From a virus, in the IMG/VR virus record IMGVR_UViG_3300010938_000636, positions 1-39,064 of that record: DNA of 39,064 nt; one strand, written 5' to 3'. The notes under the pieces are model-generated. The model was given only the letters and a program-made list of their open reading frames with translations. It made no database searches and was not told the origin of the DNA. The position numbers and the translations under genes are program-made. Positions 3,730-38,059 of this stretch are shown piece after piece (positions within the stretch are counted from its first letter, which is position 1; every line of letters starts with the position of its first letter).

Positions 3730-4465
3730 TTAGGATTCGTCATATCAAGTTTGTTACTTAGCAATATGCTAAGGCATATGCTAAGGCTAAGTTGTTTCCA
3801 CTTAGCTCTGCATGTCGCCATGCAGTTCGGACTATATCTTCAATCCTTCGGATTGCTTCGCGCATAGTCTCTACACCTTCCTTAATTAAAATTAAGGCTT
3901 GGCTCGGTGTTGACTCAAAGAGTTTTTCACCGAATTCACGAAGTTTATCGTGAGCAAATTCTACCCACGTAAAGCCTCCAAACGGCGTATCGCCTGCCGG
4001 TGCATTAGCATTAGTCGTCAATTGCACTCTCAAATAACTTGGACCATAACCAGATGCATTGCCAAGAGTTAATGAACCCAAAGCGATAGCTTGGTCTGTT
4101 GCAGACCCAGTTGGAACAGCGACACTGGAAGCACCACCATCTGCTATAGCTGTGCTGGAACTTGTTGATTGAGTATAACCCGTTGCGCTTGTTCCTACTG
4201 CACCATAAGTAGTCGATGTCCAAGTTGTTGATTGATAGAACCTGATGTTGCTAAAGGTATTTGTTGCTGTTGTTGAAAAATATGGCCTCAAATGAACAGC
4301 AAATGAATTCTGCCCAGCAGGTACATTAGAACCAGCAGTGTTATAATCGCTAGTTCCAGGCGTAGTCGCTTGTTTAAAATACCAAAGTGAACCAGTTGCT
4401 CCTAATAGAGAGGTAGAACCTGCTCCAGAGCCGTATTGTTGAGCAACGCTGAAAGTTGCAGCCAT
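3730..4465 (-). CDS. Beta-rich virion structural protein interrupted by a group I intron (exons 4465-3963 and 3745-3730)
   Basis: ATG 4465 follows a strong SD (AAAGGAGGTGA). Exon 1 encodes 167 codons plus two bases of a Ser/Thr/Gly/Ala-rich, beta-strand protein (LRPYFSTTATNTFSNIRFY and similar), like small phage head-decoration or tail proteins. Without splicing the frame runs on through intron sequence to 3758, giving an implausible helical tail (VEFAHDKLREFGEKL). Splicing at 3963/3745 gives Val168 and then YDES and stop, a 172-residue protein ending FTWVYDES. The 5' site is supported by P1 pairing. The 3' site is the best reading but less certain. The exact virion role is unknown. Confidence 0.7.
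3746..3962 (-). ncRNA. Compact group I self-splicing intron
   Basis: All four conserved core elements are present in order on the minus strand. They are P (AATTCGGTGAA, near 3936-3926), Q (ACCGAGCCAAGCC, about 3909-3896), R (GTGTAGAGACTAT, about 3877-3864) and S (GAAGATATAGTCC, 3841-3829). P3 pairs CUUCGUG (3943-3937) with CGCGAAG (3862-3856). P7 pairs the ACTAT of R with the ATAGT of S. P8 is CAATCC-GAA-GGATTG. P1 pairs exon GUGGGU with GCUCAC and places a U-G wobble exactly at the 5' splice site (after 3963). Three hairpins follow S, then a terminal G at 3746. The length is 217 nt, near the minimum for the class, with no ORF inside these limits. Confidence 0.88.
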
Positions 4466-5258: not shown

Positions 5259-6091
5259 GGCTCTTTAATTTGTTTTGGTATAATTGGTAACACAAAGCAA
5301 CGGCACCTGTAGTGAACAGGCGGAAATAAATTGCCACTTGGAAAAGGTTCGTCTATGGGAATTTCGCCCGCTTCTTCGTCTGCCATACAGGTCGGACAAA
5401 CCATTTCATCTCGAGAAGTTATCAATTTTTTATACTTAACATCATTCCTTTTATAAACTTTAAGTTCTAACTCGCCAAATAACAAAGCGGCTTCTTGTTC
5501 AGCAATCAATTCGGCCCTTTCCTCAGCATGTGCAGTTGAGGCATCTCGTAATAATTTTGCAATTTCAAAAGTTGAAGCCCTGTCTCTTATTCCTTGTTCT
5601 ATAGTTCTGGCAATCCAACTTTGTGTTGTTCCATCAACCAACCTTATCATCTCTTCTTTTCTTTTGTCAATCTCCTTTAAAATTGATTCATTAGTTAATT
5701 CAAATGTTTTATCAATTTTTAATTTATCTAATCCATTCTGTCCACCTTTATTTGCTGACCAAAACAAATAAGCGGATATTTCCGATTCCTTAATAAATTC
5801 TGTAAGCGGAACCCAAAGGCGCATTAAGTTTTTGAGTAAGTCTTTGTCACTCAATTCTTTTACGGCTTTTTTAGTTTCAGCCTTTTCGACGCCAATTATT
5901 GAGAGGACTTTCTCTACTTTGGCAAAATAAAGAATTTGTTTTTTGAGCGCATCTCGAACCGCAGTTTTAAAAATGATATAGTTTGCACTGTGTGTAAGAC
6001 TATACAAAGCGATATTAAAACGGATTTTATAAAAAAATTTTTCAAGCGCTCTCTGGATTTTTTTCAATTCCTGTAGATTCATAGGATTCAT
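5243..6091 (-). CDS. Phage Mu gpF-like minor head protein
   Basis: The 282-residue protein has a long helical N-terminal region and the C-terminal signature of the Mu gpF/SPP1 gp7 family: VCPTCMADEEAGEIPI at about 231 and PVHYRCRC at about 258-265. It has Cys232, Cys235, His260, Cys263 and Cys265 as probable zinc ligands. Members act in procapsid assembly and DNA ejection and are encoded directly after the portal, as here. The gene overlaps the portal 3' end by 50 bases; starts at M1 or M4 are both possible. No truncation is evident. Confidence 0.9.
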   Translation of the reverse strand: MNPMNLQELKKIQRALEKFFYKIRFNIALYSLTHSANYIIFKTAVRDALKKQILYFAKVEKVLSIIGVEKAETKKAVKELSDKDLLKNLMRLWVPLTEFIKESEISAYLFWSANKGGQNGLDKLKIDKTFELTNESILKEIDKRKEEMIRLVDGTTQSWIARTIEQGIRDRASTFEIAKLLRDASTAHAEERAELIAEQEAALLFGELELKVYKRNDVKYKKLITSRDEMVCPTCMADEEAGEIPIDEPFPSGNLFPPVHYRCRCFVLPIIPKQIKEPWIGQ

Positions 6092-8831
6092 AGGATCCGT
6101 AATTAGTTATTGCACTAACTTCATCATATAAATCCAGCATTGCTGAGATAATTTGATTTTCCTGACTAATAAATGGGTCAAATAGTTGGTCTAGGTCTTC
6201 CTTTGTCTTAACTGACTTTAAACCATCTTTAATCAGTTTTTGTGTTCGAAAATCTATTATATCAGTTTTAAAATCTCTAAAACTTTTTCCTTGTTTTAAA
6301 TCATTACTGATTACTTTTTTCCACCTTTTCAATTCTTGGATAATTTCATTTCTAGTAGCCTGTTTAATTTTTTGTTGAATGGTTTGAGGTGTCTGGGGTG
6401 TTGGTTTATAGGGAAGATACGGCTTTTGACCTTCCTCAGACTGCGAAACTAAATCTTTTACAAATATTGGTCCAACTGGAGTCATAATATAATGGGGGCA
6501 TCCTATTGGATTTAAACCTTCACCTAATCTCCATTCATCAACTGAGACTGCTCCAGTTCGTACTAGAGTATTAAAGACCTCTGCCTCTTCTTTCTTATTT
6601 GTTGGATTGATATTTGTCCAAACAAATTCTAAGTGTTTCTGACCCAAGTCTTCTTGAATAATTTGATCAAAAAGTTCTTTCAAGAAATTAGCCAACGGGA
6701 AAAGTCCTCTTTCTTTACCAATTTCCCATTCAGTTTCTGTCGCCCCTTTACCTCTTTCAAACTGGAATCCAATTGCTTGTGGCGGGACCTCCATAACGCT
6801 ACAGTTCCCGGTCCAAACACATTTACCATTCCTTCGAACAAAAATTGTCCCGTTAGGAACAGTCACATCATAAACTATTCCCGAATAATAAGAAATTTTA
6901 CCTTTCAATCTAGCAAAATTTGATCTTCTAACAGTTAAAATAAAGCCACCGTCGAATTTTACCTTCCTGCCCTCAATAACTGATTCACCGGGTGGTTTCT
7001 TTGTTATTGATGAGTTTTTTCCAAGCCTAAATAATATTTCTTGAAAGTCGTCTAGTAACCCCTTATTAACACTCACAGCCATCTCATAATTACCTTTTTT
7101 ATAACCATCTCCAAGAAGGTATCCTTCCCATAGAGCTTGTAAACACTCAGTATCGTAATTAAAATAATGTCTCGGAATTCTTTTTGTATAGACATTTCCT
7201 AAGCCTGAGAGATAATTCCATAGCTGAATATTATTTGTTATAAAAGACCCCCCATCCTTTCTCCAATTAAAAGGCAATTTTTCTAATATTTCTAGAACAA
7301 TCTTTTGTTTTGCTGGTGTTTTAGTCGAGATACCAACAGTATAACCAAGACTCTTATTATTTCCTTTGTATCCAGGTTTCTGTCCACCTTTGCTGCCTCT
7401 TGCCCATCCATCAGCTAGCCATAGCCCAAAAAATCTAAACCAATCTTTTGAATTTATTTTTACCTCTTTGCATCGTTTAATTTTTTCTGTCCCATTGATA
7501 TTACTTATTCTCAAATCAAGTCCAGGTAAAGAGAAAGATGTTTTGGACAGTCCAGCCCAAAGAGCTGTTAATGGAGCAAAATGCCCTTCTTTATTTACTA
7601 AATCCCTTGCCTTTTCAAACTTAAAGGGAGACAACCCTCTCTTTTTCCCATGATTATAAGTCGTTAACATCCGATGATCCGGGGTAACCAATAAATCAAT
7701 CATTTTTCCTTTAAAAGAAACCATCGGCCCATCATAAAAATAAGATTGATATCTTGTAGGCTTCTGAAATTCAATAAATCCATCTTTATTTCTAGTAGCA
7801 ACTTTTTCTCCCTGCAAGTCTTTAAAGAATTTCCATCCGTTTTCAGTTAGAATTTCTGTTTTATCATCAAAGCACGTTTGCAAAAGCAACCATTTTTCAA
7901 ACTTATCAAAGGCCATATCCTCTGGCTTTCTTATTGGATGCCACTTCATTCCTTCCGGTAGGAATTTAATTTTTCTTTGAAACCTTGGATCACCAGAAAA
8001 CATTGCGTCCCAAGCTTCCTGCCACGCTTTTAATTGGTCTGGGTTGCTTGCAATGTCTTTTGGAAGTTCGACTAAACCCTCAGGGATGTTACCTTCCGTC
8101 AGGTAAGCTAAATCATAAGCACTTAATTTTAGAGCAGTGGTTACAACAAGAATTAATGTTTCTACAGGACTTAATCCATATGGGCTATCAGTCCGAGGAT
8201 TCATTACTTTATAAATAAGTTCGTCTATTGTAAACCTTGCCGTCTCTACACCATCAATTTCTTGTAGATACGCTTCTTCTGGCGGAACGGGTGTTGTTCC
8301 ATCAGCATTTAATATTAACTTAATTGTTGAAGCATCTATTGGAAGGTAGCCATACAACCCGCCCTTTCTGTTCCTTCTACGATATATTGCGACTGCATCT
8401 AAAATCAACAAGTCTTCTAAGATCTTGTCTATAAAAGTTCTAAAAGTCATGGATTTATCGCCAGTGGGATATTTAAGAAATTCTTTGGTGCGAGCCGCAT
8501 CTTCCTGGTATTGTTCTTTGAGTTTTTTGTCAGTAATTACTTCTACCGGGGTAACATCCCACGCAAGTTGGGTAATTTGCCTTTTGCGATACGAAATGCA
8601 AGAGCGCAAGACAGGGTAAAGAACAGAAAATTCTCGCAGGGTTTTATAACTAATTCCTTTGGGAAAGCTTCTGCTGATTATTGCACCCGCACCAGGAATT
8701 ATTGGCAACCCAAAATTAATAGGTTGAGCCATTAGACCTTTTTCGGATGCTTCCTTCTTGCTTATTTCTGCAATTGATTCATTAACTATTGGATTAATGA
8801 TTTTTCGTAAAAGCCGATCCCAAATCGCCAT
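6042..8831 (-). CDS. Phage portal protein with an in-frame intein
   Basis: The flanking exteins (residues 1-319 and 677-929) form a 572-residue portal protein. Typical features are FSVLYPVLRSCISYRKRQI near the N-terminus, NPRTDSPYGLSPVETL at 211-225, and the VPPQAIGF segment just after the intein. The second extein ends in a helical, Gln-rich region. The 357-residue intein interrupts at LLLQT/CSVMEVPP, a conserved portal region, so splicing is needed for a working portal ring. The portal is the dodecameric head vertex through which DNA is packaged. It is preceded by TerL and followed by the Mu-F-like gene, the standard packaging/head order. Confidence 0.93.
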   Translation of the reverse strand: MAIWDRLLRKIINPIVNESIAEISKKEASEKGLMAQPINFGLPIIPGAGAIISRSFPKGISYKTLREFSVLYPVLRSCISYRKRQITQLAWDVTPVEVITDKKLKEQYQEDAARTKEFLKYPTGDKSMTFRTFIDKILEDLLILDAVAIYRRRNRKGGLYGYLPIDASTIKLILNADGTTPVPPEEAYLQEIDGVETARFTIDELIYKVMNPRTDSPYGLSPVETLILVVTTALKLSAYDLAYLTEGNIPEGLVELPKDIASNPDQLKAWQEAWDAMFSGDPRFQRKIKFLPEGMKWHPIRKPEDMAFDKFEKWLLLQTCFDDKTEILTENGWKFFKDLQGEKVATRNKDGFIEFQKPTRYQSYFYDGPMVSFKGKMIDLLVTPDHRMLTTYNHGKKRGLSPFKFEKARDLVNKEGHFAPLTALWAGLSKTSFSLPGLDLRISNINGTEKIKRCKEVKINSKDWFRFFGLWLADGWARGSKGGQKPGYKGNNKSLGYTVGISTKTPAKQKIVLEILEKLPFNWRKDGGSFITNNIQLWNYLSGLGNVYTKRIPRHYFNYDTECLQALWEGYLLGDGYKKGNYEMAVSVNKGLLDDFQEILFRLGKNSSITKKPPGESVIEGRKVKFDGGFILTVRRSNFARLKGKISYYSGIVYDVTVPNGTIFVRRNGKCVWTGNCSVMEVPPQAIGFQFERGKGATETEWEIGKERGLFPLANFLKELFDQIIQEDLGQKHLEFVWTNINPTNKKEEAEVFNTLVRTGAVSVDEWRLGEGLNPIGCPHYIMTPVGPIFVKDLVSQSEEGQKPYLPYKPTPQTPQTIQQKIKQATRNEIIQELKRWKKVISNDLKQGKSFRDFKTDIIDFRTQKLIKDGLKSVKTKEDLDQLFDPFISQENQIISAMLDLYDEVSAITNYGSYESYESTGIEKNPESA
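6804..7874 (-). mobile_element. Intein with LAGLIDADG endonuclease domain in the portal
   Basis: The 357-residue intein starts at Cys1 (CFDDKTEILTENGW, block A; codon 7874-7872). It contains TPDHRMLT (block B) and two LAGLIDADG-type motifs, FGLWLADGWA and WEGYLLGDGY. It closes with YDVTVPNGTIFV (block F) and the terminal WTGN, followed by extein Cys. The terminal Asn and +1 Cys are intact, while the usual penultimate His is Gly, a tolerated variant in some inteins. The homing endonuclease looks full length. Confidence 0.93.
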
Positions 8832-22563: not shown

Positions 22564-24351
22564 TTAATAACTAAATACTTGTTGTGCTAGTCTCTTTTCT
22601 GCTAACTTTACATATTCGGAATTAATTTCGAAACCAATAAAGTTTCTCCCAAGTTGTCTGGCGACAACAGCAGTTGTACCAGAACCAATGAATGGATCCA
22701 TAACAATATCGCCTGGTTTACTCAAATAATTAATCCATTGGATTAAAGGTTTTTCTGCTTTTTGGGTAGGGTGGTATCGCGGGTGTTGTGGAATACTATC
22801 TACCACATAGTCCCTAGCTTGTCCTAAACGCCAATTAAAATAGTCTTGTTTAACTGCTGTTTTAGTAAACCAGAGAGCCATTTCCACCGCTTTCATAAAA
22901 TCTACTTTCCTTCCACGTGGCACTGGATTTGAATTATGAGAAATTATTCGGTTAGGTAATATAAATTGGTGTTCCTTTTCCAAAGAAAAATTATAATAAG
23001 CATTTGCTTCTTTAATGGATAAAATTCGCTTTATTTGTGTGGGGTAAGTTTTAAATCCTTTATGCTGAGATTTTCCAATCGAAATCCACATTGCCTTTTT
23101 TCTTCCATTTTGGTAATTTACAAACCTTTTTTTAAGCCTAAAATCGTATCCTAAAATAGATGATAAAACAAGTAAAGTTTCAGCTAACTGCTTATTATCT
23201 GATAAACCGAATCTCATTGTAACTCGTGTTTCTTCCTTCATCCCATCCCCATCAAAAAAACCTTTAAGTATTCCCTCAAGAAATTCATTATTGGTTTTTA
23301 GTAGTTCTCTAATATTAAGAAACTTCTTCTTTGCCCCTTTCCCTTGAATAAACTTTCTAATTATTCCAGAAAAAATAAAACAATCGATTATTACAATTAA
23401 TCCATTTCGATAAATATGTTTCCTGATAGGAGAATTAAATCCATCTACTATGCTTTTTAATTTATAATAAAATCTTACTTCCTTTTTATTGAGAGAGAAC
23501 CTAACCTCTGTTCCGTCTTTTCCTAAACTACCTTCTGCAAGAAATAATCCTATTGCCCATCCTAAATCAAAATTAAAAAACGCTTTATTTCTCCCTTCAG
23601 TAATATCAATTTTTTCTACCTTATCCAAAATGTCTCCAACTTTTAATTTATTAGCAGAAATAAATTCTCCATTAATTTTAAACTTATGCTCTGGGGTCAC
23701 TTTTAAAATAGAACCATCCTGTAGATAAAGAGCAATTCCTTGAGAATACTGCTTTTGGATTTCGACAACCTTGATCCATTCCCCCTTAGGAGATAACAGC
23801 CTTACTTCGGAGGCATGCTCGTTCTTTAGCCGATAAATTTCCCTAATAGGGAGGAATGTTGTTTCATTGTTTATTTTACAAAGTAGTTTCATGCTTCCGT
23901 TTAAACATTTTATCCAATAAAGAGGACTTCTTCCCTTCATCCCAAGATTTTCTAGATATTCCCAGACGGGGGTAATTTTCTTCTTATCAAAAAAGAAAAC
24001 TAAATGCCGATATGGTTTAAGAACTCTAACACATTCTTTAAGCCATCTTTTACACCAATCAAGATATTCTTCTTCTGTTCGCCATTGCTTATCCCAGCTT
24101 CCAAAGTCTAAATCAATATCCTTTCCCCTATACTTTACATTTGAAGAACGGGCTATCTTGATCTCTTGGCTAATCATAAACGGTGGGTCAGTAATTATAC
24201 AGTCGATGGAATTGTCAGGTATCATTGGTAACAATTCCAAACAATCGCCTTGTGTGATTTTATTAATGAAATTTTTAAGACCTTTAAAGCCCTTAAGATT
24301 TTTGGGACTGGAATTGGAACTGGAACTGGAATTGGAATTATTTACAACCAT
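22564..24351 (-). CDS. DNA N4/N6 methyltransferase with an in-frame intein
   Basis: After an Asn/Ser-rich repeat start (6-bp repeats near 24310-24345), the enzyme has DCIITDPPFMI (50-60; motif IV) and ECVRVLKPYRHLVFFF before the intein. After it come SNPVPRGRKVDFMKAVEMALWF and DPFIGSGTTAVVARQLGRNFIGFEIN (motif I). The mature protein is about 270 residues, a beta-class amino-methyltransferase. The 325-residue intein sits at YWIK/SNPVP, a conserved site next to the target-base pocket. The ATG overlaps the Phd-like gene by 14 bases, so both share one autoregulated promoter. Confidence 0.92.
   Translation of the reverse strand: MVVNNSNSSSSSNSSPKNLKGFKGLKNFINKITQGDCLELLPMIPDNSIDCIITDPPFMISQEIKIARSSNVKYRGKDIDLDFGSWDKQWRTEEEYLDWCKRWLKECVRVLKPYRHLVFFFDKKKITPVWEYLENLGMKGRSPLYWIKCLNGSMKLLCKINNETTFLPIREIYRLKNEHASEVRLLSPKGEWIKVVEIQKQYSQGIALYLQDGSILKVTPEHKFKINGEFISANKLKVGDILDKVEKIDITEGRNKAFFNFDLGWAIGLFLAEGSLGKDGTEVRFSLNKKEVRFYYKLKSIVDGFNSPIRKHIYRNGLIVIIDCFIFSGIIRKFIQGKGAKKKFLNIRELLKTNNEFLEGILKGFFDGDGMKEETRVTMRFGLSDNKQLAETLLVLSSILGYDFRLKKRFVNYQNGRKKAMWISIGKSQHKGFKTYPTQIKRILSIKEANAYYNFSLEKEHQFILPNRIISHNSNPVPRGRKVDFMKAVEMALWFTKTAVKQDYFNWRLGQARDYVVDSIPQHPRYHPTQKAEKPLIQWINYLSKPGDIVMDPFIGSGTTAVVARQLGRNFIGFEINSEYVKLAEKRLAQQVFSY
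22933..23907 (-). mobile_element. Intein with LAGLIDADG domain in the DNA methyltransferase
   Basis: This 325-residue intein begins with Cys (CLNGSMKLLCKI, codon 23907-23905). It contains VTPEHKFKI (block B) and the LAGLIDADG motifs WAIGLFLAEGSLG and LEGILKGFFDGDG, and ends ISHN with intact His-Asn before extein Ser. It appears functional. It is a different insertion from the portal intein and has low visible similarity to it. Confidence 0.92.
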
Positions 24352-27060: not shown

Positions 27061-27108
27061 GCATAATTGGGGAGACTTAAAGCAATTTAAGTCTCCATAA
27101 TTGTGCTT
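27059..27108 (+). other. Two-tier intergenic hairpin with GCAA tetraloop
   Basis: An inner perfect 11-bp stem GGAGACTTAAA/TTTAAGTCTCC (27071-27081, 27086-27096) with a GCAA loop is stacked on an outer 10-bp stem GAGCATAATT/AATTGTGCTT (27059-27068, 27099-27108). The SD follows immediately. Confidence 0.8.
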
Positions 27109-27126
27109 GATAAGGAGGTGAAAAGG

Positions 27127-27540
27127 ATGGAGATAAAACTATCGGAAAAAAAGGAAATCAAAAACCCAAAAGAAATGGCTGGAGTTTTCCAACAAGTTTT
27201 GAAGATGGAAAGTCAGATAGACCAAGATAAGGAACATTTTTGGGTTGCTGGATTGAATACTCGGAATGTTATTAAGTATTTGGAATTGGTTAGTCTTGGA
27301 ACGCTGGATGCTAACCTTGTCCACCCAAGGGAAGTTTTTAGGCTGACGATTAGCAAGGGGGTTGCTCAAATTGTGGTTGGACATAATCACCCGTCTGGAG
27401 ACCCAGAACCATCAGAAGACGATTTGGAAATAACCCAAAGACTAAAGAAAGCTGGAGAAATTATTGGGATAGAAGTTATTGACCATATCATTATTGCTGG
27501 AAATGATTACTTAAGTTTTAAAGAAAAGCGGTTGCTGTGA
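27127..27540 (+). CDS. RadC-like JAB/MPN (JAMM) domain protein
   Basis: ATG 27127 follows AAGGAGGTGAAAAGG. Residues 35-137 are the RadC C-terminal domain: EHFWVAGLNTRN (with the acidic residue), SLGTLDANLVHPREVF and GHNHPSGDPEPSEDD. The last supplies His86, His88 and Asp99 as zinc ligands. The N-terminal HhH part of chromosomal RadC is absent. Such proteins are common in phages and plasmids (an anti-restriction or DNA-repair association is suggested, activity unproven). A second paralogue is at 34584. Confidence 0.9.
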   Translation: MEIKLSEKKEIKNPKEMAGVFQQVLKMESQIDQDKEHFWVAGLNTRNVIKYLELVSLGTLDANLVHPREVFRLTISKGVAQIVVGHNHPSGDPEPSEDDLEITQRLKKAGEIIGIEVIDHIIIAGNDYLSFKEKRLL

Positions 27541-34583: not shown

Positions 34584-34991
34584 ATGAAAATAGAAAACGC
34601 AAAAAAAGCGGTTGAAATTGCTAAAAAATTAGTTTTAGACTGGGATAAGGAACATGTAATTGCTTTAATTTTGGATAATGCCTACAACTTGAAAAAGGCA
34701 GAAATAATAAGCATAGGGACAGTAAATGCCAGTCTTATTCACCCACGAGAGGTTTACAGACCTGCGGTAAAATACAATGCAGTTGGGCTGATGCTATTAC
34801 ACAATCATCCGACGAATAATATCAAACCTTCCCAGGAAGATTTGCTTATCACCAAAAAATTAATAAGGGTAGGAAAAATTTTGGGTATTGTATTGCTTGA
34901 TCACATTGTTTTTTGTCAAAAGTCTAAATTTTATTCAATGAAGCAACACCAAGATTCAAACTTGCTTAAATTTCAAACTACAGCAGATTGA
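34584..34991 (+). CDS. Second RadC-like JAB/MPN protein
   Basis: Like the protein at 27127, this 135-residue protein has the JAMM core: DKEHVIALILDN, SIGTVNASLIHPREVY and LLHNHPTNNIKPSQED, with His73, His75 and Asp86 as ligands. PSGDPxPS is changed to PTNNIKPS. It lacks the standard strong SD. The terminator at 35072-35104 follows, so it ends an operon. The two copies share about one third of residues by eye and are ancient paralogues. Confidence 0.88.
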   Translation: MKIENAKKAVEIAKKLVLDWDKEHVIALILDNAYNLKKAEIISIGTVNASLIHPREVYRPAVKYNAVGLMLLHNHPTNNIKPSQEDLLITKKLIRVGKILGIVLLDHIVFCQKSKFYSMKQHQDSNLLKFQTTAD

Positions 34992-37056: not shown

Positions 37057-37281
37057 ATGACAGAATTGGTTATTTGGATAGCTTGTGCTTTAATTTGTTA
37101 TACTATTGCCAAAAACAAAGGTCGTGACCCCATTTTAGCGTTTGCTCTTGGGTTATTATTTGGGGTTATAGCAGTTGTAATCTATTTGCTGATTAAGGGT
37201 TCGCCTGAATATGAATTGGAAAAAGCCCAAAAAAAAGTTGAAGCGATTGAGAAAAGAATCAGAAAAGGAGGTGAAAAATAA
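37057..37281 (+). CDS. Two-span small membrane protein (holin-like)
   Basis: ATG 37057 follows AAAGGAGG. The 74 residues contain two membrane helices (LVIWIACALICYTIA and ILAFALGLLFGVIAVVIYLLI) joined by a short basic loop (KNKGRDP), then a charged coil (LEKAQKKVEAIEKRIRKGGEK). Topology and its place before the endolysin fit a class II holin. The same two-helix pattern also occurs in small bacterial membrane proteins, so holin is inferred. Confidence 0.68.
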   Translation: MTELVIWIACALICYTIAKNKGRDPILAFALGLLFGVIAVVIYLLIKGSPEYELEKAQKKVEAIEKRIRKGGEK

Positions 37282-37310
37282 AGCGCCCTGTCAGGGTCCA
37301 GGATCAGTAA

Positions 37311-37601
37311 ATGACAGTAATAGAAACTGATGATCTCAAAAAAAAGACAGATTGGCAGTTGGTTAAAAAAAGAGTTTTGATAGTGGTTACTATAATAGTT
37401 TTGTTTGGCTTGCTTGCTTTGTTTTTAAAAGACCGTTGGCGAGAAGTTAAATTTGCCATTGAGCATCCAATCTTTGTCCGTGAACTACGGGAAGTATATA
37501 CCGAAGAACATAGACAGGCTGACCAGAATGTTCTCATGAGACAGAGGATGGAATTGAAACCTACTATGGCTGTAGAGGATTGGGGGAATCGGGGAAAATA
37601 G
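37311..37601 (+). CDS. Membrane-anchor protein; zero-frame partner of a predicted frameshift product
   Basis: Zero-frame product of 96 residues. A basic N-terminus (DLKKKTDWQLVKKR) is followed by one membrane helix (VLIVVTIIVLFGLLALFL), then a charged, Glu-rich periplasmic-like segment ending GNRGK and TAG. Alone it would be a single-span membrane protein. The heptamer G GGA AAA comes directly before the TAG and shifts into the endolysin frame, which would yield a fused product of about 249 residues. The SD at AGGATCAG is weak. Confidence 0.72.
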   Translation: MTVIETDDLKKKTDWQLVKKRVLIVVTIIVLFGLLALFLKDRWREVKFAIEHPIFVRELREVYTEEHRQADQNVLMRQRMELKPTMAVEDWGNRGK

Positions 37602-38059
37602 TCCCGCCTGTATCTCTCGTGCAGGCAGATGAGGGGAAAATCCGAGAGAAGGATAAAAGAACGGCGTTAAATTTTATCCTTAAAAAACATTTGGAAAATT
37701 CGCCAATGAGAGGGCTGGAAAATAGAATTGAAGCATGCGAAATTGACCCTTTATTAATACTAGCGATAGGTTATCAGGAATCTAGGTTAGGAAACGCTTA
37801 TGCGAAATGGTTTAATGACAAATATCATAATCCTTTTGGGCTTATGGCTGGCAATAGTCTTATACAATTTGGCACGTGGGAGGAAGCTATAGACGCTGAA
37901 TGTAGGTTACTTACAAGACTTATCAAGGAAAGAAGAGCAAGCACAATTAGTTTGCTGGGTGCCAGTTACGCAGCGGATAACCAGTGGCCTACCAAAGTGG
38001 AAAGTTTTTATAATCAATTATGGAAGGAACTTGAAGGGTTTCAAACTTGTGCCTTCTAA
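37580..38059 (+). CDS. Glucosaminidase-like endolysin domain (probably reached by -1 frameshift)
   Basis: The frame begins at TTG 37580 without a usable SD, inside the anchor gene. The domain (about residues 30-155) has RIEACEIDPLLILAIGYQES (catalytic Glu in YQES), YHNPFGLMAG, FGTWEEAIDAECRLL and YAADNQWPTKVESFY. This is the layout of glucosaminidase/lysozyme-like peptidoglycan hydrolases of phages and Gram-positive-type bacteria. No signal peptide of its own is seen, which fits expression as a fusion to the upstream membrane anchor, giving a membrane-exported lysin. It overlaps the anchor by 22 bases. Confidence 0.85.
   Translation: MGESGKIVPPVSLVQADEGKIREKDKRTALNFILKKHLENSPMRGLENRIEACEIDPLLILAIGYQESRLGNAYAKWFNDKYHNPFGLMAGNSLIQFGTWEEAIDAECRLLTRLIKERRASTISLLGASYAADNQWPTKVESFYNQLWKELEGFQTCAF
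37592..37649 (+). promoter_or_regulatory. Programmed -1 frameshift element (slippery site plus H-type pseudoknot)
   Basis: Slippery heptamer G GGA AAA (37592-37598) is in the zero frame, next to TAG (37599-37601). After a 7-nt spacer, stem 1 pairs GCCTG (37606-37610) with CAGGC (37622-37626). Stem 2 pairs TCTCTCG (37613-37619, in loop 1) with CGAGAGA (37643-37649), forming a pseudoknot. After slipping, reading continues AAA ATA GTC in the lysin frame. Confidence 0.78.

Follow-up and report, generated by a model that had tools for sequence, protein, structure and literature searches.

Among phage genes, those for tail chaperones and capsid proteins are familiar cases of programmed -1 ribosomal frameshifting (PMC6316719, PMC5506516, PMC7881722). 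In the tail assembly chaperones (lambda G/GT type; SPP1 17.5/17.5*), slippage at a heptamer close to the 3' end of the first ORF adds a minor, C-terminally extended fusion to the N-terminal protein, and the site proposed for corynephage phi16 is also accompanied by an H-type pseudoknot (PMC5506516, PMC6316719). The T7-like capsid genes 10A/10B and dnaX-type genes have a stop-proximal slippery site and form two products in a set ratio; the capsid frameshift site of phage Privateer is GGGAAAG (PMC7881722). For the MS2 lysis gene L, a historic frameshift model was later replaced by termination-reinitiation (references cited in PMC5009743); L overlaps an upstream ORF in another frame and encodes a small lysis peptide started by reinitiation. 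This old MS2 model was the only connection between lysis and frameshifting found in the open-licence papers searched. For frameshifting in endolysins, holins or hydrolases, these papers yielded examples from tail and capsid genes, and their titles and abstracts named no endolysin made in this way, which is weak evidence of absence.

Enzymes joined to a hydrophobic N-terminus are known from ordinary genes. The GH73 endolysin gp588 of Bacillus phage G (256 aa) carries a hydrophobic segment at its N-terminus and a GH73 domain after it, all within a single continuous ORF. Signal-anchor (SAR) endolysins, such as P1 Lyz and phage 21 R, combine an N-terminal TM segment with a glycan-cleaving domain and are secreted without a holin pore. 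The known means by which phages control lysis are holins, antiholins and signal-anchor release.

We examined a locus near the end of a 39,064-nucleotide stretch of viral DNA (IMG/VR record IMGVR_UViG_3300010938_000636, positions 1 to 39,064; here called the window), whose features are collected in the table. A preliminary description of this DNA had placed a canonical slippery heptamer immediately 5' of the stop codon of a small membrane-anchor ORF, and the heptamer is there: the 3' end of the anchor ORF reads ...AAT CGG GGA AAA TAG, where G GGA AAA fits the canonical X XXY YYZ pattern. The slip product is 96 + 153 = 249 aa, with the junction ...NRGK-IVPPVSLVQADEGK... (NRGK-IVPP), in agreement with the fusion of about 249 residues, membrane helix plus catalytic domain, that had been put forward; its two parts are the one-TM ORF and a GH73-type domain.

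Features of the anchor-enzyme locus in the window, with the counterparts of the heptamer in two related loci (L088 and L113)
Feature	Coordinates	Strand	Remarks
74-aa ORF	37057..37281	+	two predicted membrane segments, charged C-terminus; neighbour of anchor ORF
AGGA, probable Shine-Dalgarno (SD) of anchor ORF	37300..37303	+	7 nt before ATG 37311; duplex -4.9 kcal/mol
Anchor ORF (zero frame)	37311..37601	+	96 aa; one N-terminal TM helix (~residues 22-40), charged tail, C-terminus ...DWGNRGK-stop
AGAGGA, SD-like element	37574..37579	+	12 nt upstream of heptamer; from the sequence
Slippery heptamer G GGA AAA, anchor frame	37592..37598	+	counterparts L088:1375-1381 GGGAAAC, L113:1426-1432 AAAAAAA
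-1 frame product, GH73-type N-acetylglucosaminidase domain	37598..38059	+	153 aa; without convincing own start
Zero-frame stop TAG	37599..37601	+	abuts heptamer
Pseudoknot stem 1, 5' arm GCCUGU	37606..37611	+	knot scan
Pseudoknot stem 2, 5' arm UCUCUCG	37613..37619	+	knot scan
Pseudoknot stem 1, 3' arm GCAGGC	37621..37626	+	knot scan
Pseudoknot loop 3	37627-37642	+	16 nt
Pseudoknot stem 2, 3' arm CGAGAGA	37643..37649	+	knot scan

The arrangement resembles that of the tail chaperones in having the heptamer near the end of the first ORF, with an N-terminal protein and a C-terminally extended fusion as its predicted products; it differs in that the pair is a membrane protein and a wall hydrolase rather than chaperones before a tape measure, and in that the two genes are found on the + strand, surrounded by small non-structural genes, while the recognised structural genes (terminase, portal and Mu-F) are on the - strand. 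It shares the stop-proximal slippery site with 10A/10B and dnaX, whereas what the slip would add in the window is an entire enzyme domain, carried on a membrane anchor. The likeness to the SAR endolysins consists in a predicted TM segment and a glycan-cleaving domain, which in the window are in different frames; to gp588 the window fusion has very weak sequence similarity; and the resemblance to MS2 L is the overlap with an upstream ORF in another frame, the window product being a fused enzyme. The mechanism would be ordinary -1 programmed frameshifting as in tail and capsid genes, and no account of its use for a lysis-type enzyme was found in the open-licence papers searched.

From 37523 onwards the -1 frame has no stop codon until 38057-38059. 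The glucosaminidase profile PF01832 (GH73) matched the window product at E=2.2e-6 (28.8 bits, against a curated cut-off of 30.2) and matched its homologs in L088 at 31.3 bits (3.5e-7), above that cut-off, and in L113 at 25.0 bits (3.2e-5). An AlphaFold2 model built from the three-sequence alignment had a pLDDT of 70; Foldseek returned LytB as the sole high-probability match, and re-alignment of the model ranked the glucosaminidase of the C. difficile endolysin Ecd09610 (Z 10.7) and LytB (Z 10.4) ahead of other GH73 and lysozyme-fold enzymes, although a Z near 10 is by itself moderate evidence because the model is mostly helical. Glu61, within a QES/EES/AES motif, is invariant across the three proteins. 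Taken from profile matches, predicted fold and the conserved glutamate, the assignment as a GH73 glucosaminidase is sound, and the full endolysin domain that had been read in the -1 frame is thus supported as a domain of GH73 glucosaminidase fold.

Direct searches of viral and genome collections gave no close relatives of the enzyme or anchor beyond one locus (L113/L114/L158) of record G026, and relatives were therefore reached via the terminase, by alignment with known phage terminases and then with the nearest metagenomic relatives. About 30 records with terminases 36-72% identical to that of the window were obtained and searched with PF01832, then with the enzyme profiles. The gene pair was present in two of them: G002 (103 kb, terminase 59% identical, locus L088) and G026 (77 kb, 60%, locus L113). 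The one-TM ORF of L088, preceded by a strong SD (AAGGAGGTGAT), closes with AG GGA AAC TAA, with a glucosaminidase in the -1 frame extending to 1836; in L113 a one-TM ORF, also with a strong SD (AAAGGAGG), ends GTA AAA AAA GAG TAG, with the -1 frame glucosaminidase extending to 1878. The distance from heptamer to stop is 0 in the window, 0 in L088 and 3 nt in L113; the fusions would be 249, 248 and 252 aa long, respectively, with predicted junctions just ahead of LNTGEAAK in L088 and RVELADAP in L113, and each of the three anchors has one TM segment (KD 1.8-2.9). The enzymes of L113 and L088 are 45-48% and 28% identical to that of the window; the L113 anchor is 37% identical to the window anchor, and the L088 anchor has the same layout and no detectable similarity. 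The heptamer and the -1 layout are thus conserved in three of three gene-holding records, window included, from diverged phages. The pair was not matched in the terminase relatives G024, G041, G006 and G007 or in smaller records (mostly fragments), and a candidate for it in the 40.7-kb record G039 proved to be a chance match.

Downstream of each heptamer, a scan for H-type knots, in which the energy is the sum of stems S1 and S2 with no loop penalties, predicted a pseudoknot at a spacer of 5-7 nt. The window knot begins 7 nt after the heptamer and ends at 37649. The geometry proposed earlier held for the 7-nt spacer, the 7-bp stem 2 and the 16-nt long loop; stem 1 can be drawn either as 5 bp with a 2-nt loop 1, as proposed, or as 6 bp (by a U-G extension) with a 1-nt loop 1. 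The L088 knot is predicted to form from S1 ACUGGU/ACCAGU and S2 AGCUGCUA/UAGCAGUU after a 5-nt spacer, and the L113 knot from S1 ACUUGCCG/CGGUAAGU and S2 CCCCU/AGGGG after 7 nt. Predicted S1+S2 energies are -26.05 (window), -24.21 (L088) and -25.34 kcal/mol (L113); dinucleotide shuffles did at least as well in 3, 0 and 5 of 10,000 trials, respectively, and of 40,000 random genomic positions 5 reached -26 and 18 reached -24 kcal/mol. Because the three knots are alike in architecture and unrelated in sequence, their likeness does not come from inherited sequence similarity. Counting against the window knot, a nested hairpin of -18.5 kcal/mol competes with it. No Rfam family was found at the frameshift site. 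Both pair-bearing relatives retain a stop-proximal heptamer, an enzyme in the -1 frame and a predicted H-type pseudoknot; the case that the preliminary description had named as refuting, related phages with both ORFs but no heptamer or stems, was found in neither.

How often a heptamer falls at a stop codon by chance was assessed in DNA from related phages totalling about 700 kb. A heptamer that ends 0 or 3 nt short of the stop occurs in 34 of its 1166 mechanical ORFs (minimum length 80 aa). At distances of 0-9 nt there are 52 heptamers in this DNA, and by knot energy the three anchor-enzyme sites rank 1-3, the fourth being at -13.3. The other heptamer-at-stop sites, in L125, L129, L131, L132, L133 and L153, were rejected: most are ordinary gene overlaps in which an ATG lies at the junction or close to it, and none has a strong knot. 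A control is provided by L131 (~7389-7398), where GGGAAAATAG closes a Mu-F-like gene and the overlapped next gene has an ordinary ATG just upstream. Since that heptamer lies within an ordinary ATG overlap, a heptamer alone can arise by chance; by itself it is weak evidence for frameshifting, which is not so of the combination of heptamer, knot and layout. The SD-like AGAGGA upstream of the window heptamer is a possible stimulator of frameshifting; as a conserved element it was rejected, its placement being inconsistent in L088 and L113.

From sequence and comparison together, programmed -1 frameshifting at the window site is very likely, and a frameshift-made, membrane-anchored glucosaminidase is the explanation that we regard as highly probable; the support rests on three instances. 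Most ribosomes translating the one-TM gene would stop at its TAG and release the 96-aa membrane protein; the downstream pseudoknot would stall ribosomes at G GGA AAA, where a fraction would slip back one base and go on to make the 249-aa fusion, an N-terminal signal anchor followed by the GH73 glucosaminidase. This would place the enzyme on the outer side of the cytoplasmic membrane, held close to the wall by its anchor. In all three uncultured phages, which are distant relatives of one another, the enzyme gene is apparently readable only via a ribosome slip at the end of the anchor gene. A AAA AAA, the heptamer of L113, is not the one on which E. coli ribosomes shift most readily (PMC5009743).

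An improbable alternative is that these are two overlapping genes, with translation of the enzyme starting within the -1 frame through coupling or reinitiation (at TTG 37580, GTG 37619 or the conserved ATG 37706) to give a soluble cytoplasmic endolysin awaiting a holin. TTG 37580 is directly abutted by AGAGGA, and the L131 control shows GGGAAAATAG in an ordinary overlap; SD duplex energies at the three window starts are nevertheless -1.6, +0.9 and -3.3 kcal/mol, in the order given, against -12 to -13.5 kcal/mol in strongly initiated window genes. The earlier claim that the endolysin lacks its own SD is borne out to this extent, none of the three having a usable one, although about two-thirds of the window's long mechanical ORFs are also weak in SD, so that a poor SD in the -1 frame is by itself only suggestive. 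ATG 37706 corresponds to ATG 1543 of L113 (SPM/TPM motif), both having weak SD-like matches (-3.9 kcal/mol in L113), as own-frame initiation might predict; a start there would drop the first helix of the modelled fold together with a conserved stretch, and L088 has no Met at this position. The -1 frame of L113, which begins at 1420 behind a TGA, has no ATG, GTG or TTG until ATG 1543, inside the conserved domain; the stretch before that ATG (KDSRLAIELIIRNQLKGTP) shows protein-level conservation with its window counterpart (KDKRTALNFILKKHLENSP) and corresponds to the first helix of the modelled domain. In L088 there is no start before ATG 1414, itself without an SD, and neither relative has any start codon before its heptamer. 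None of the window, L088 and L113 has an SD and start codon immediately preceding the endolysin; the -1 frame appears to be coding without a plausible start of its own, most clearly in L113, and own-frame initiation would leave three strong pseudoknots unexplained.

Slippage of RNA polymerase, rather than of the ribosome, on the A/G runs of the site (GGGGAAAA, AAAAAAA) is very improbable: homopolymer runs are present in the window and L113, but L088 has only GGGGAAAC, the runs are short for slippage by RNA polymerase, and the downstream pseudoknots indicate the ribosome. That an assembly or sequencing error, or gene decay, split a normal fused ORF is barely credible; one missing base would give the layout in a single record, and an in-frame TM-lysozyme does exist in G039, but three independent assemblies show this break, each with its heptamer at the corresponding position.

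The frameshift-made, anchored glucosaminidase would most likely act in lysis, because the PHROG matches of its homologs are endolysins and the window's scanned ORFs hold no other hydrolase family. Alternatively, the frameshift could be real and the enzyme serve wall remodelling during infection or as an accessory hydrolase, a role compatible with the same mechanism, which we consider rather unlikely. In its favour, the gene lies among small non-structural genes with no recognised holin adjoining, and G026 encodes a second enzyme (L145:13678-14166), in which an SLT-like lysozyme domain continues in frame from a TM helix, so that lysis by that phage may depend mainly on an enzyme other than the glucosaminidase; with the window perhaps a fragment, an accessory role is possible. 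Against it, no other hydrolase was found in the window's scanned ORFs (PF18896 gave none) or in G002 (searched with PF01464, PF01510 and PF18896). A further TM helix joined to a lysozyme-like domain (PF18896/PF01464-like) in one ORF is present on the - strand of G039 (L159:1426-2019; terminase 58% identical), and an anchored hydrolase is thus a natural product in this phage group.

If lysis is the role of the anchored glucosaminidase, the excess anchor-only protein may be its dosage partner, either holin-like or an inactive subunit; it may also be a brake or a by-product. We tentatively suggest, as a possibility somewhat short of even, a lysis module timed by recoding, in which a fixed frameshift ratio would set the tethered active enzyme against an excess of enzyme-less anchor (holin-like or inhibitory), one mRNA thereby supplying both enzyme and brake. 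Recoding would then add a ribosome-level control of lysis, and the enzyme could not be made without its membrane anchor. Gene callers would break such an enzyme up into a short "hypothetical membrane protein" and an endolysin that seems to lack a start, so that similar genes in uncultured phages may be widely missed.

The 74-aa ORF that precedes the anchor ORF may be holin-like, judging by shape only. By eye, the stretch after the TM helix of the G039 lysozyme (AWWEVNHF) resembles RWREVKF of the window anchor. Elsewhere in the window, a Group I catalytic intron (RF00028, 84 bits) lies at 3808-3981 (- strand) near structural genes; LAGLIDADG/intein-like insertions are found within the portal protein (6042-8831, - strand) and within a DNA methyltransferase (22564-24351, - strand); and two separate RadC/JAB-domain genes (27103-27540 and 34584-34991, + strand) occur in this one phage fragment.
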